Below, piece by piece: positions 5,040 to 10,014 of a stretch of 40,316 bases of DNA. Position 1 is the stretch's first letter. The number at the start of each line of letters is the position of its first letter. Both the position numbers and the translations under genes were made by a program. Under the pieces are notes generated by a model, which saw only the letters and a program-made list of their open reading frames with translations, made no database searches and was not told the origin of the DNA. The stretch comes from Desulfurivibrio sp. GTDB taxonomy: Bacteria; Desulfobacterota; Desulfobulbia; Desulfobulbales; SURF-16. The stretch is taken from contig QZKJ01000097.1 in assembly GCA_003605035.1 (NCBI GenBank), positions 1 to 40,316 of the forward strand, written 5' to 3'.

Positions 5040-5870
5040 ATGCACATAGCAGAAAAGCCCGGAAAAGGCACTGTTTTTTCAATTGATTATACGGACTGGC
5101 ACCAAAGCCTCAAAATGCTGCTGGAAAAAAGCGGCCTGGCAGACCGGCTCCAGGACCGGCAGCGGATCCTGATCAAGCCCAACCTGGTGGAGGCCATGAA
5201 ACCGCCGATCACCACCCCGGTCGCCCTGGTCGGCTCGCTGGTGGACCTGCTGCGGCAGATGGCCCCCCACTGTGCAATCATGATCGGCGAGGGCTGCGGT
5301 TCGGCCCAGTACGACACCTGGCATGTCTTCAAACAGCTTGGCTATGCCGCACTTGCGGCGGACAGGAAAATCGAACTGCTTGACCTCAATGAAGAGAGCT
5401 GTGTGGTCAGGGAAAATAACAAGTTCCCCAGGTTGCCGAAAATCTATCTGCCGGCCGTGCTCTTTGACTCTTTTCTCCTGTCGGTGCCGGTGCTCAAGGC
5501 CCACAGTCTGGCAGAGGTGACCCTGACCATGAAGAACATGATGGGCGCCGCACCGCCGACGCATTATCAGCAGGGCGGCCACTGGAAAAAGGCCTCTTTC
5601 CATGACGGCATTCATGCCGCCATCTTTGACCTGAACCGCTACCGCACCCCTGATTTCACCATTCTGGACGCCACGGTGGGCATGGCCGAGGCCCATCTCT
5701 GGGGGCCGGTCTGCCGGCCTGCCAGAAACAAGCTCGCCGCAGGCTTTGATCCGGTGGCCATCGACGCCTGGGGCGCGACCCTGCTTGGCCGCGACTGGCG
5801 CAAAATCGGCCATATCCGCCTGGCGGACGGGGTGCTGGGCAGCGGGGAATTCACGGAGGTACGCTGTTAG
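5040..5870 (+). CDS. DUF362 domain protein
   Basis: A 276-residue protein of the DUF362 family. Recognisable blocks are RILIKPNLVEA (about 42-52), IGEGCGS (about 82-88), the SVPVLKAHSLAEVTLTMKNM stretch (about 152-171) and the C-terminal GFDPVAIDAWGATLLG. The iron-sulfur ferredoxin extension found on many DUF362 proteins is absent. There is no signal peptide, so it is probably cytoplasmic. The function of the family is not firmly known. The start at 5040 follows an AGAAGG site. Its last 4 bases overlap the end of the convergent ppsR gene, leaving no room for a terminator. Confidence 0.85.
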   Translation: MHIAEKPGKGTVFSIDYTDWHQSLKMLLEKSGLADRLQDRQRILIKPNLVEAMKPPITTPVALVGSLVDLLRQMAPHCAIMIGEGCGSAQYDTWHVFKQLGYAALAADRKIELLDLNEESCVVRENNKFPRLPKIYLPAVLFDSFLLSVPVLKAHSLAEVTLTMKNMMGAAPPTHYQQGGHWKKASFHDGIHAAIFDLNRYRTPDFTILDATVGMAEAHLWGPVCRPARNKLAAGFDPVAIDAWGATLLGRDWRKIGHIRLADGVLGSGEFTEVRC

Positions 5871-6694
5871 GGACGCAGCATGACCTTCTTCTTCGGCAGC
5901 TCGATAACCTGGCAGATCTGGGTGGCGATTTCTTCGATGGATTTTCCGGATGATGAGACGCTGGGAATCCGGTTGCGGCGGTAAATCTCTTCCGCCTGCT
6001 GAATTTCCTCCCGGCAGGTGGATATTTTGGCATATTTGCTGGCCGGATAGCGTTTTTCCCGGACACTGCTCAAGAATTCCGGGGAAATGGTCAGACCGAC
6101 CAGCCGTTTGGTTACCGCCTTCAGTTCCGGCGGCAGCTTGTATTGATTCAGATATTCACTGGTCAGCGGGAAATTGGCTGCCTTGTAACCCATCTGGGTG
6201 GCCAGATAGACGCTGACCGGGGTTTTGCCGGCCCGGGAAACCCCGAGGATGATGATATCCGCCTCATTGTATTCGTGACTCTTGGTGCCGTCATCGTGCT
6301 CCAGGCAGTAATGAATGGCCTCGACCCTTCTGCCCATCTCCATGCCATCCATGTGGTGGGAAAAGCCAGGCACCCGCAGGGCACTGGTCTCCAGGGACCG
6401 TTCCAGATCATCCAGCAGGGAACCGAAGATATCGAAGAACTCCACCTCCGGGCTGTCGAAGACATTGCGGATATCAGGGTCCAGGATGGAGATGAAGACC
6501 AGAGGCCGTCTGCCGCCGGACCGCTTGAGGATGGCCCGCATGATTTCCCTGGCCTGGCTGACCGTCCGGACAAAGGGATAGCTTTCTTCAAGAAAGTTGA
6601 TTTCCGGAAACTGGCAGGTGAGGGCCTGTCCCAGGTTGGTCACCAGGATGCCGGTGCTGTCTGAGATATAATAAACGTCCTTTGAATTCCACAT
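5867..6694 (-). CDS. ppsR: PEP synthase regulatory protein (DUF299 kinase/pyrophosphorylase)
   Basis: Bifunctional ADP-dependent kinase and phosphate-dependent pyrophosphorylase that turns phosphoenolpyruvate synthase off and on by modifying a threonine next to the catalytic histidine. The 275-residue length, the N-terminal VYYISDSTGILVTNLG and the P-loop-like GVSRAGKTP (151-159) are typical of this DUF299 family. The C-terminal half includes ANFPLT and LVGLTISPEFLSSVREKR. Related proteins regulate pyruvate phosphate dikinase instead. I favour PEP synthase because ppsA, with a threonine two residues before its catalytic histidine, is encoded at 37805-40258. No dikinase is visible here. The two genes are not in one operon. 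Confidence 0.9.
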   Translation of the reverse strand: MWNSKDVYYISDSTGILVTNLGQALTCQFPEINFLEESYPFVRTVSQAREIMRAILKRSGGRRPLVFISILDPDIRNVFDSPEVEFFDIFGSLLDDLERSLETSALRVPGFSHHMDGMEMGRRVEAIHYCLEHDDGTKSHEYNEADIIILGVSRAGKTPVSVYLATQMGYKAANFPLTSEYLNQYKLPPELKAVTKRLVGLTISPEFLSSVREKRYPASKYAKISTCREEIQQAEEIYRRNRIPSVSSSGKSIEEIATQICQVIELPKKKVMLRP

Positions 6695-6851: not shown

Positions 6852-7754
6852 TCAAACGGCGTACAGCCAGTTGGAGAATTCCTGCAGGAAATTGTCTTTC
6901 AGCATATTTTTCCGGCTGGAAAGGGCAGGATGCTCCATACCCTCTGTTTTACCGGCAATGGCTTCATGCACCAGGGATGGACCGAACGGCGCCAGGCGCG
7001 GATGTTTGGCCACGGTTTCCTGCACCCTGTTCATCATCCGGCGGGCTGCCGGAACATGCTCGTCCTGCCGGGGCAGGACGGCATCCGCGGCGGCCTGCGG
7101 CTCAGCATTTTTTGTCTCGAGAAATTCCTTGATCTGCTGCCACTGGGCCTGCAGCATCTCGGCGTATTTCATTTCCTCGGTGTGGGCCTCTTCAGCTATC
7201 TCCGGCAGTTCGGCAAAAATATCAGCCAGGGAGTCGCCAAGATCCGCAGAGGCGGGCACGGGATGATAATCGGTAATCTGCGACGAAGCGGACCAGCTGG
7301 CCTGGTAACTGAACGAGGCGGAGAGCTGGGAGATGGAACCCATATCCCCGATGTTCATGGCCTGGTCCATGGCTGCGGCCAGGTTGCCGCTGAAAAAATG
7401 TTCGGCAATGGAGGTCAGATCATTCATGAGATTCTGGATATCCGCCAGTTCCTCCTCGCTCAGATCGCCTTGCACGGAAAAGCTGAAGGCGTCAACACTC
7501 AAGGCTGAGGTGGTAAAATTCATGCCCTGCTGCAGGGGGCTGGCCCATTTTTCCGAGGCCAGGGCATAGGCCTGCTCCTGATAATTGGAGAGGGTCACCA
7601 CATCCCCTTCCGCCGTGGTGAAGGAGATGTCGGCCTGGCTGCGCTGGGACATGGCCTCGCTGTAGCTCTGGTAGTCCTTCTGCAGCCCGGGCGAGGAAAG
7701 CCGGGGAGCTTGGTGATAAGGCGCGGCATTGTTCTGCTGAATGGGACTTGTCAT
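6852..7754 (-). CDS. Unknown protein, likely sigma-28 (flagellar regulon) gene
   Basis: I do not recognise a named domain in this 300-residue protein. It is polar, with no signal peptide or membrane segment. An N-terminal strand-like segment ADISFTTAEGDVVTLSN (about 41-57) is followed by SVQGDLSEEELADIQNLMND (about 93-112) and an FFSGNLAAAMDQAMNIGD segment. A Ser/Ala-rich stretch and a helical, charged second half end in NFLQEFSNWLYAV. The style (TTAEGD..TLS, then GDLSEEELADI) resembles uncharacterised proteins I have seen in motile proteobacteria, but that is a weak recollection. The ATG at 7754 has a perfect GGAGG 6 bases upstream. A sigma-28-like promoter precedes it, immediately after glgP, which suggests a role in motility or surface behaviour. 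The gene is certainly real; the function is open. Confidence 0.8.
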   Translation of the reverse strand: MTSPIQQNNAAPYHQAPRLSSPGLQKDYQSYSEAMSQRSQADISFTTAEGDVVTLSNYQEQAYALASEKWASPLQQGMNFTTSALSVDAFSFSVQGDLSEEELADIQNLMNDLTSIAEHFFSGNLAAAMDQAMNIGDMGSISQLSASFSYQASWSASSQITDYHPVPASADLGDSLADIFAELPEIAEEAHTEEMKYAEMLQAQWQQIKEFLETKNAEPQAAADAVLPRQDEHVPAARRMMNRVQETVAKHPRLAPFGPSLVHEAIAGKTEGMEHPALSSRKNMLKDNFLQEFSNWLYAV

Positions 7755-7757
7755 GGC

Positions 7758-7836
7758 TTTCCTCCGATTTCAGACGATTGCTTGGCTGTCGGGATACTGA
7801 GACTTGTAAGAAGCGGATCGGCATTATCGGAGGAAA
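7758..7836 (-). promoter_or_regulatory. 11-bp inverted repeat able to sequester the Shine-Dalgarno sequence
   Basis: On the minus strand TTTCCTCCGAT (7836-7826) is the perfect complement of ATCGGAGGAAA (7768-7758), which contains the GGAGG ribosome site of the gene starting at 7754. The loop is 57 bases. The upstream arm lies inside the sigma-28 promoter spacer. It would therefore be present in glgP read-through RNA but absent from RNA started at that promoter. Confidence 0.55.
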
Positions 7837-7841
7837 CTTGA
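7815..7841 (-). promoter_or_regulatory. Sigma-28 (FliA) type promoter
   Basis: Minus strand: TCAAGTTT (7841-7834), an 11-base spacer, then GCCGATCC (7822-7815). The enterobacterial FliA consensus is TAAAGTTT-N11-GCCGATAA, so 7 of 8 and 6 of 8 positions match with exact spacing. Transcription would start near 7808, about 54 bases before the ATG at 7754. The -35 box lies 7 bases after the glgP stop codon. Confidence 0.7.
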
Positions 7842-7848
7842 CGTTTTT

Positions 7849-10014
7849 TTAGATGTCACTCTGATAAATTTTTTGCAGCTTCTGCAGCCGTTTGCTGACA
7901 GGATCCGGCAGATGCAGTTTGTAGCGATCCACATATTCCGCCGTCATGCGGTGGGTGTTGAAGATCGGACAGTTGAGCTGCAGATTATAGATGCATTTAT
8001 CAATATACTGAGCGCGCAGTTCCTTGTTGTAGAACGTTGCCAGGATACCGGGAAAGATTTCGTAAAAGGATGTCGAGTCCTGTTCATAGAGCAGTGAGGA
8101 GGGCGCTTCACTGAGGCAGGCGGTTTCAACATCCGCTTCGTAGCCGAATTTCCAGCCGGTCTTGCCCTCATGATAACCCTCCACCCACCAGCCGTCCATG
8201 GTGCTGATGTTGGGTACGCCATTCATGGCGGCCTTCATGCCGCTGGTGCCGCTGGCCTCAAGCGGTCTTTTCGGGCTGTTCAGCCAGGCATGAACGCCGG
8301 AGACCATCATTTTAGCAATATTCATGTCATAGCCGGGGATGAAAATCAGTTTTCCCAGACCGTTGGTTTTGATATACAGATCATCCTGTAGATCAAGCAC
8401 CAGTTTGATGATTGACTTGCCTGGCTCATCCGAGGGATGGGCCTTGCCCGCGTAAATAAAATTCACCGGAAAATTATTGCTGACAATGATCTCCGCCAGC
8501 CTGTCCATATCGTCAAAGATCAGGTCGGCGCGCTTGTAAGTGGAAAACCTCCTGGCAAAACCGATGGTAAAGACGTCGGGGGTAAGGACATGTTCGCCGT
8601 CGTCAAGATTGGAAAGATAGTTCGGCGGATCAATCCATGTTTCATGCATCTGTTTGCGGTGCAGGGAAAGCATGTTGTTGACATACTCGATTAATCTGCG
8701 GGTATCCTCCTTCCAGGCCCGCCGAAAACTCTCGCGGAAATCCTCGGAGCTGAAAAGTAGACCGGCATTGACAAAAACCGCCGGGTCTTCCCGCCAGTTG
8801 TTCAGTTCGGCGAAGCTGTCATAGAGCGCCGCCTTGGCATCGCTGATCCAGGTCAGATGGTGCACCCCGTTGGTGATGGCGGTTATCTTCTTGGCAAACT
8901 GCGGGAACTGCTTCTGGGTGACGGCCTTGTGCAGCCTGCTCACGCTGTTGGTGGCCCGGTTCACCCGCATGGCCAGTTTGGTGAAATTGAACTGATGGGG
9001 ATTTTCCTCATCCTGGGCCAGCAGGTGCAGAATCCTGCTGCAGAAGGCATAGCCGATGTGGCTGATGATATTCTTGTCAAAACGATCATGGCCCGCCTTG
9101 ACCGGGGTATGAATGGTGAAAACGATATTTTTTGCCACCGCATCGGCTGCCTGCATGATGTCCTGATCCGTGGCCTTGGCAGCGTAGTTCGGCCCGATTT
9201 TTTCGGCAAGCCATTCAGCCATCAGATTGAGGACCACCACCACCCCGTGCTGCTCATTGAGATGGATGGTTCTGCTGGTCAGGCCGAGGGTTTTTTTGAT
9301 GGTGACAATGGAGGCGCCCAGCAGCCGGCGCTGTACCGCCTTGGCCTGATCGGAGATGCTGTCATAGAGACTCTGGGAAACCTGCCTGATCCATTCAGGG
9401 GAGGAAGGGATGCTGTAGTCCAGCAGGATTTCCGGAATGAAAAAATCCAGATTTGTGCTTACCTCCATTTTCAGCCACAGTCTGGCACGAGCCAGCACCT
9501 CCCTGTCGCGGCCGTCATGAAAGGGAATTTCAATTTCCAAAGGCAGGTCAGGGAAATCCGGGTTTTTCATCAGATAGAGGGAAGGGGTGTTTTCCGGGGA
9601 CCAGTCGGTTGCCGTGGAAATCTGGCCGAGGCGGGAGTCGACCAGCTGGGAAAAATAACCCTTGCGGTAAAGCAGGGAGACGGCTATAGCCGGTATTTTC
9701 AGATCGGCGAAACTTTTCAGCGTATCGCCGGCCAGGATGCCGAGGCCGCCGCCGTAGTTGGGTATCTTTTCCGGACCATTGAGAAACAGTCTGGAAAAAT
9801 GGCGCAGCAGATTGGTGGAATTTTTGTCAATATCCGATTGCAGGAGCCGTGTCTTGATCGGGTGATACACGTCCCGGTCAGCGCCGATCTCCATGGAAAC
9901 ATAGATAACCGAATCTCCGGCGGGGCTGATCAGATTATCCCAGACTGCGTCGAGAGTTTTCTGGGTTACCCCGAAAAAAGTGCCCCAGCGGTTCGTTGCT
10001 ATATATTTGTTCAT
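7849..10014 (-). CDS. glgP: Alpha-glucan (glycogen) phosphorylase, GT35
   Basis: Pyridoxal-phosphate enzyme that releases glucose-1-phosphate from glycogen or maltodextrin ends. The 721 residues fit the shorter alpha-glucan phosphorylase branch rather than the 800-plus-residue GlgP/MalP branch. Visible motifs are NYGGGLGILAGD (86-97), RRFSTYKR (488-495) and the PLP-lysine block EASGTSGMKAAMNG with Lys594. The ATG at 10014 has no Shine-Dalgarno sequence; eight A residues directly precede it. A TTTACA-N17-TATTAT pair upstream would start RNA almost at the ATG, so a leaderless or short-leader message is possible. The branching enzyme glgB is 22 kb away, so glycogen genes are scattered. Confidence 0.94.
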   Translation of the reverse strand: MNKYIATNRWGTFFGVTQKTLDAVWDNLISPAGDSVIYVSMEIGADRDVYHPIKTRLLQSDIDKNSTNLLRHFSRLFLNGPEKIPNYGGGLGILAGDTLKSFADLKIPAIAVSLLYRKGYFSQLVDSRLGQISTATDWSPENTPSLYLMKNPDFPDLPLEIEIPFHDGRDREVLARARLWLKMEVSTNLDFFIPEILLDYSIPSSPEWIRQVSQSLYDSISDQAKAVQRRLLGASIVTIKKTLGLTSRTIHLNEQHGVVVVLNLMAEWLAEKIGPNYAAKATDQDIMQAADAVAKNIVFTIHTPVKAGHDRFDKNIISHIGYAFCSRILHLLAQDEENPHQFNFTKLAMRVNRATNSVSRLHKAVTQKQFPQFAKKITAITNGVHHLTWISDAKAALYDSFAELNNWREDPAVFVNAGLLFSSEDFRESFRRAWKEDTRRLIEYVNNMLSLHRKQMHETWIDPPNYLSNLDDGEHVLTPDVFTIGFARRFSTYKRADLIFDDMDRLAEIIVSNNFPVNFIYAGKAHPSDEPGKSIIKLVLDLQDDLYIKTNGLGKLIFIPGYDMNIAKMMVSGVHAWLNSPKRPLEASGTSGMKAAMNGVPNISTMDGWWVEGYHEGKTGWKFGYEADVETACLSEAPSSLLYEQDSTSFYEIFPGILATFYNKELRAQYIDKCIYNLQLNCPIFNTHRMTAEYVDRYKLHLPDPVSKRLQKLQKIYQSDI

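Follow-up and report, generated by a model that had tools for sequence, protein, structure and literature searches.

A sigma-28-type promoter that carries the complement of the ribosome site downstream: a candidate message-identity lock in Desulfurivibrio sp. and its relatives

Transcripts that enter the insertion sequences IS10 and IS50 from outside fold in a way that hides the transposase start. In bacteriophage T4, the long early transcripts of gene e (lysozyme), soc, 49 and I-TevI sequester the ribosome site in a helix. Late promoters that overlap the DNA for the 5' strand of that helix give RNA that lacks this strand and is well translated; with the longer early RNA, lysozyme falls about 100-fold (PMC3014915). 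Here we describe a locus with apparently the same logic, as judged from its sequence, on a chromosomal sigma-28 gene. It lies on the minus strand of a 40,316-nucleotide (nt) stretch of Desulfurivibrio sp. (assembly GCA_003605035.1, contig QZKJ01000097.1, positions 1 to 40,316; "the window"), where a sigma-28-type promoter between glgP and a gene for a 300-residue protein (the 300-aa gene) contains the complement of the Shine-Dalgarno (SD) sequence of that gene. Among the titles listed by literature searches of an open-licence collection, which lacks most subscription journals, none describes a sigma-28 or chromosomal bacterial case of this kind.

Layout of the promoter and its comparison with known systems

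Sigma-28 promoters have the consensus TAAAGTTT/GCCGATAA, and their transcripts are expected to start about 7 nt 3' of the -10 box. The site in the window spans 7841-7815, differs from this consensus at 3 of 16 box letters, and has its -35 box 7 nt behind the glgP stop codon (7849), so that a preliminary description of the locus, made from the DNA letters, was correct base for base on this point. It was equally correct that TTTCCTCCGAT (7836-7826) is the exact 11-base reverse complement of ATCGGAGGAAA (7768-7758), which ends 3 nt 5' of the ATG at 7754. The upstream arm had been placed inside the spacer; it does lie within the promoter, with eight of its bases among the 11 of the spacer, but the other three are the last bases of the -35 box. 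Coordinates of all features are collected in the table below. The pattern TNAAGWTT-N12-CCGAT has two exact matches in the whole 4.2 Mb genome, one of which is this site, and the genome encodes FliA (257 bits; cut-off 190) and likewise flagellin-type genes. A terminator scan of the window listed none between glgP and the 300-aa gene.

Table. Features of the locus (amino acids, aa; E, expect value)
Feature	Position	Strand	Basis or remark
glgP, 721 aa, alpha-glucan phosphorylase family	7849..10014	-	TIGR02094 E 2.4e-126, PF00343; read-through RNA presumably originates here
-35 box TCAAGTTT of the sigma-28-type promoter	7834..7841	-	sequence; similar sites in 45/60 orthologue loci
Promoter spacer CCTCCGATAAT, 11 nt	7833-7823	-	sequence
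-10 box GCCGATCC	7815..7822	-	sequence
Anti-SD arm TTTCCTCCGAT, inside promoter	7826..7836	-	perfect complement, covariation, swap tests
Expected transcript start, ~7 nt past -10 box	7808	-	inferred from sigma-28 promoter geometry
SD arm ATCGGAGGAAA	7758..7768	-	sequence, fold, cross-species pairing table
Controlled gene, 300 aa	6852..7754	-	no Pfam/NCBIfam match at E 1e-3
ppsR (kinase/pyrophosphorylase), downstream neighbour, not in lock	5867..6694	-	PF03618 E 1.9e-73

As in T4 gene e, the SD sequence can pair with an upstream strand that is present in the longer RNA, and a specialised promoter overlaps the DNA of that strand, provided that transcription starts where the promoter geometry places it. 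Conservation of the pairing with compensating changes is also found here, in its tight form only in three related genera (g1, g3 and g6; see below). Unlike the T4 genes, the present gene is chromosomal, has a FliA-type promoter and carries the arm between the promoter boxes. Its loop spans about 60-130 nt, a metabolic gene would supply the read-through, and the evidence from covariation is computational. The lock proposed in the preliminary description is supported by the analyses below but less new than was implied, given that T4 gene e follows the same logic. IS10 and IS50 differ in another respect: a mobile element is protected there, whereas in the present case the arrangement would couple a host gene to a single sigma factor.

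Conservation and covariation among relatives

Of the 22 family genomes, 19 carry an orthologue of the 300-aa gene, and the order as a whole has 59 carriers among 257 genomes. Flagellin is present in 56 of these 59 carriers; among the 198 non-carriers it is present in 113 (lists tallied by eye). Leaders were extracted from 60 orthologue loci, and a sigma-28-like site passed the score and distance filter in 45 of them (28 of 40 outside the family), with a score that was uncalibrated on random DNA but with a similar position across loci and a next-best site that usually scored far lower. The gene is thus preceded by a consensus-like promoter at a conserved place, as is expected of a member of the sigma-28 regulon.

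All nine sampled genomes of g1 (six), g3 (one) and g6 (two), hereafter the core genomes, retain the pairing along with glgP and the sigma-28-type site. The preliminary description had counted loss of the pairing in close relatives with both genes as a refutation, and none of the nine shows such a loss. In the protein tree the three genera cluster as a single clade (support 94/98, with the near-identical G020 and G021 as one row), and pairing energies at the core loci range from -14.4 to -31.0 kcal/mol. In every core genome the next gene upstream is a co-oriented glgP; counting all loci, 21 have this neighbour. Six core genomes have the -35 box 6-16 nt past the glgP stop, and in the other three the distance is 92 to ~260 nt. 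The longest of these gaps (L008, ~260 nt) holds a duplicated stretch of ~130 nt and strong hairpins, and a long hairpin is likewise present in the gap of L004.

Chance pairing was assessed with a control set of 94 genes from the fetched loci, in which the SD region was compared with the 100 nt before it. The longest Watson-Crick run is 11 at the 300-aa gene and at most 8 in the controls (2/94), and runs of at least 9 occur at 8 of 11 target loci versus none of the 94 control genes. The SD pairing of the promoter is matched by none of the 307 other 27-nt segments within 400 nt upstream and is reached by none of 300 shuffles of the spacer.

Both sides of the helix change between species while the complement is kept, which bears out the compensatory changes that the preliminary description had proposed to look for. 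All four Watson-Crick pairs (A-T, T-A, G-C, C-G) occur at helix position 16, three (A-T, G-C, C-G) at position 15 and two (C-G, T-A) at position 9. Across ten tabulated loci, every locus pairs at positions 7 and 9-15, nine pair at each of positions 6 and 8, eight at position 16 and seven at position 17. The register in this table was picked per sequence for the longest run and is biased toward pairing, so the register-free swap tests, in which arms are exchanged between loci, weigh more. The family test included 15 of 20 rows, after removal of a near-duplicate or second copy (L005, L021), two loci that were too distant (L014, L016) and one below score (L019). Native arms gave a mean of -17.5 kcal/mol versus -12.2 when swapped (p = 5e-5, the floor of 20,000 permutations), and the five loci of the genus gave p = 0.008. 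Run length with G-U pairs gave p = 4e-5 for eight loci of g1, g3 and g6, and p = 0.008 for five g1 loci, where the native arrangement was the best of all 120. These matched changes in related species suggest that the pairing matters.

The energy test showed no signal in the remaining ten loci (p = 0.73). In the f8 families it was significant with a tiny effect (-12.4 vs -11.1; 18 loci, one from f14), which we do not claim as a lock. Outside the family, only 2 of the 28 loci with a passing site (L152 and L154) beat all of their shuffles. The tight pairing is accordingly a feature of one subclade (g1, g3, g6), as far as these genomes indicate, and it is often missing in the wider family and order, even beside glgP. 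At f8 loci, e.g. L149-L157, sigma-28-like sites with 12-nt spacing and a -10 box CCCGAAAA or CCCGACAA were also observed, and CTCCCG there complements the ribosome site CGGGAG at several loci.

Two DNA- or glgP-centred explanations can be weighed against these data. The arms form a dyad, one half of which overlaps the promoter, so a regulator might bind both arms as a DNA inverted repeat and repress the promoter. Such a regulator would hold its motif, but the arm sequence varies between species with complementarity kept, the leader from promoter to start codon measures anywhere between 43 and 116 nt across core loci, and the second arm covers the SD sequence every time. The covariation favours pairing in RNA over binding to DNA, and we consider a DNA operator very unlikely. 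Alternatively, the helix, which stands directly behind glgP, could serve that gene, perhaps by attenuating its message or stabilising the 3' end. No U tract follows the helix, however, the terminator scan did not list it, and its downstream strand always lies over the SD sequence of the next gene, so that this explanation is hardly credible. Both the operator and the terminator were set aside.

Predicted state of the ribosome site in the two messages

Folding of an RNA that spans both arms predicted that all 11 pairs form, with 4 more extending into the start codon (-26.2 kcal/mol), in keeping with the leader fold envisaged earlier. The RNA from 7808 was predicted to have weak local structure only (-9.1; z-score 0.52). 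Openness of the SD sequence was expressed as its mean predicted unpaired probability. Over ten core loci (L005 left out) it was 0.03 for the read-through message, 0.39 for the message begun at the sigma-28 start and 0.27 for a read-through message whose arm had been scrambled; the corresponding values were 0.30, 0.40 and 0.33 for 34 other loci, and 0.01, 0.23 and 0.20 for the gene in the window. The models thus predict that read-through RNA conceals the SD sequence and that sigma-28 RNA leaves it more exposed. The earlier claim that read-through RNA could hide the ribosome site agrees with these values. The companion claim, that the short RNA would be translated freely, stands in so far as that RNA is predicted to be more open, but the step from 0.01 to 0.23 in the window means that its SD sequence is not freely open even there. 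For this gene the modelled lock is tight and its open state partly open.

Taken together, the best explanation is probably a promoter-identity lock that acts on RNA. The upstream strand of the helix would be encoded in the sigma-28 promoter, from the end of the -35 box to the middle of the spacer. RNA reading through from glgP would carry both strands, and the helix would cover the SD sequence and lead to poor translation. RNA started by FliA would begin past the upstream strand and escape the lock, because the promoter itself encodes the strand that is missing; no helix would form and translation would be better. The protein would then be made only if the flagellar sigma factor had started the message, and leakage from glgP would be blocked without a terminator. 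Silencing except when FliA is active, as put forward in the preliminary description, is the natural reading of such an arrangement. For the locus itself we infer a start near 7808, read-through from glgP, a translational effect and a benefit.

Several results weigh against this lock. With G-U pairs permitted, runs of at least 11 occur in 8 of the 94 control genes too, and the duplex energy of -20.2 kcal/mol is ordinary (25th percentile of the controls -18.4, 5th percentile -25.2). The fold of the spanning RNA is only modestly better than chance (z-score -1.92; 8 of 200 shuffles equal or better). For the gene in the window, the sigma-28 RNA is predicted to keep the SD sequence mostly paired (0.23 open), and scrambling of the arm in read-through RNA gives 0.20. 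When only Watson-Crick pairs are counted, the run-length swap gives p = 0.0027 for eight loci and fails within the genus (p = 0.14), and G019 (L003) has just 7 contiguous pairs. Strong hairpins stand between glgP and the promoter at L004, L008 and L009 (distances of 92, ~260 and ~190 nt), where read-through could be weaker. At 10 of the 21 loci linked to glgP the tight form is absent or the case is borderline; linkage to glgP alone therefore does not require a lock. The two g5 genomes pair strongly, yet 50-56 of 300 shuffles of their pyrimidine-rich spacer do as well. Given the modest statistics for energy and fold, it is chiefly the relatives that argue for more than chance.

Some of these points would follow if the pairing were a by-product of composition, with a T-rich promoter element and a pyrimidine-rich spacer complementing any purine-rich SD sequence. 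This would explain the energies and G-U runs of the control genes, and it accounts for the g5 loci and for the small swap difference in f8. In contrast, bases outside the GGAG core co-vary, swapped arms pair worse, and spacer shuffles fail in all nine core genomes, where none of 300 pairs as well as the real spacer (z-scores -3.7 to -7.4). A by-product is improbable on this evidence and was also set aside.

A helix that is conserved over a ribosome site is often a target of regulation, and this frequency gives some weight to a conditional switch, in which the long RNA is the working message and a small RNA, a protein or the translation of glgP frees its SD sequence, as a second, FliA-independent mode of expression. 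The short distance from the glgP stop to the -35 box in six of the nine core genomes would let a terminating ribosome reach the base of the helix. The arm is still paired, however, where the end of glgP is 92 to ~260 nt away (L004, L008, L009), past the reach of a ribosome, and no conserved loop or partner site is known, none having been systematically sought. We regard a switch as unlikely, if with a small chance of being right, and keep the promoter-identity lock as the preferred explanation.

Other sigma-28 genes and the identity of the protein

Flagellin genes served as a control for sigma-28 leaders in general: 19 of 30 fetched loci (L084-L113), 13 of them with a site scoring at least 19. 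In these 13 leaders the pairing ranges from -4.8 to -13.3 (mean -8.4) and is weaker than at every core locus; 8-pair helices occur in the flagellin leaders L085 and L091. A composite pattern of the promoter, CTCC in its spacer and GGAG downstream was found at five places in the 257 order genomes, all before the 300-aa gene (reversed-pattern control: none), although the pattern is narrow and finds five of the nine core genomes. Among 395 genomes across the phylum, two contain it: that of the window and, at one place, G379. The reversed control hits 5 genomes, and therefore nothing is shown beyond the 300-aa gene.

The exact sigma-28 site was found at 51 places in the 22 family genomes, and in a rough table of those in the fetched loci no further gene had a lock that was clearly conserved. 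The sole other exact site of the Desulfurivibrio genome (L025/L188, G000:C26:8186-8387) precedes a 40-residue gene that is present in 19 of 22 family genomes, in up to three copies each. This gene was rejected as a second lock: a similar site stands at 7 of 10 loci examined, but the pairing is merely -4.8 to -12.7. At L077 and L115 (G002 and G004), the spacer of a sigma-28-type site complements the SD sequence of a response-regulator-like gene (-17.1 and -13.8 kcal/mol); this gene may carry a second lock. A 78-residue gene at L074 and L075 (G020, G021) has a sigma-28-type site and an GTTTTCCTC-like SD complement, of unequal strength.

Downstream of the 300-aa gene, a sigma-70-like match (10/12) at 6730-6702 lies ahead of ppsR, which may therefore have a promoter of its own.

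Searches of Pfam and NCBIfam gave no family match for the 300-residue protein at E 1e-3. Its residues 37-123 match the CiaI model weakly (NF041456; E 0.0012; 18.7 bits, cut-off 290 bits), a match reached by 2 of 18 family members, and it is not assigned to CiaI. In Campylobacter jejuni, CiaI and the Feds are products of sigma-28-dependent non-flagellin genes that are made and secreted with the flagellum (PMC5223770). Only because CiaI belongs with such proteins is the weak match suggestive; far under the model cut-off, it gives no more than a hint that the 300-residue protein could be flagellum-linked and exported.

Compact genomes place tightly timed genes behind unrelated ones, and how leakage is avoided is puzzling where no terminator fits. 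More tentatively than the lock itself, we suggest that the promoter may double as the removable half of a translational lock, whose free spacer letters co-evolve with the ribosome site and through which only flagellar-sigma messages would be translatable. This would be a message-identity check on a chromosomal gene of neither phage nor transposon, evolved in one subclade of a bacterial order where the gene directly follows a metabolic gene. If this is true, the spacer of the promoter itself supplies the block, neither additional DNA nor a protein is needed, and promoter spacers, usually seen as filler of fixed length, can hold an RNA function that could be searched for in other sigma regulons.
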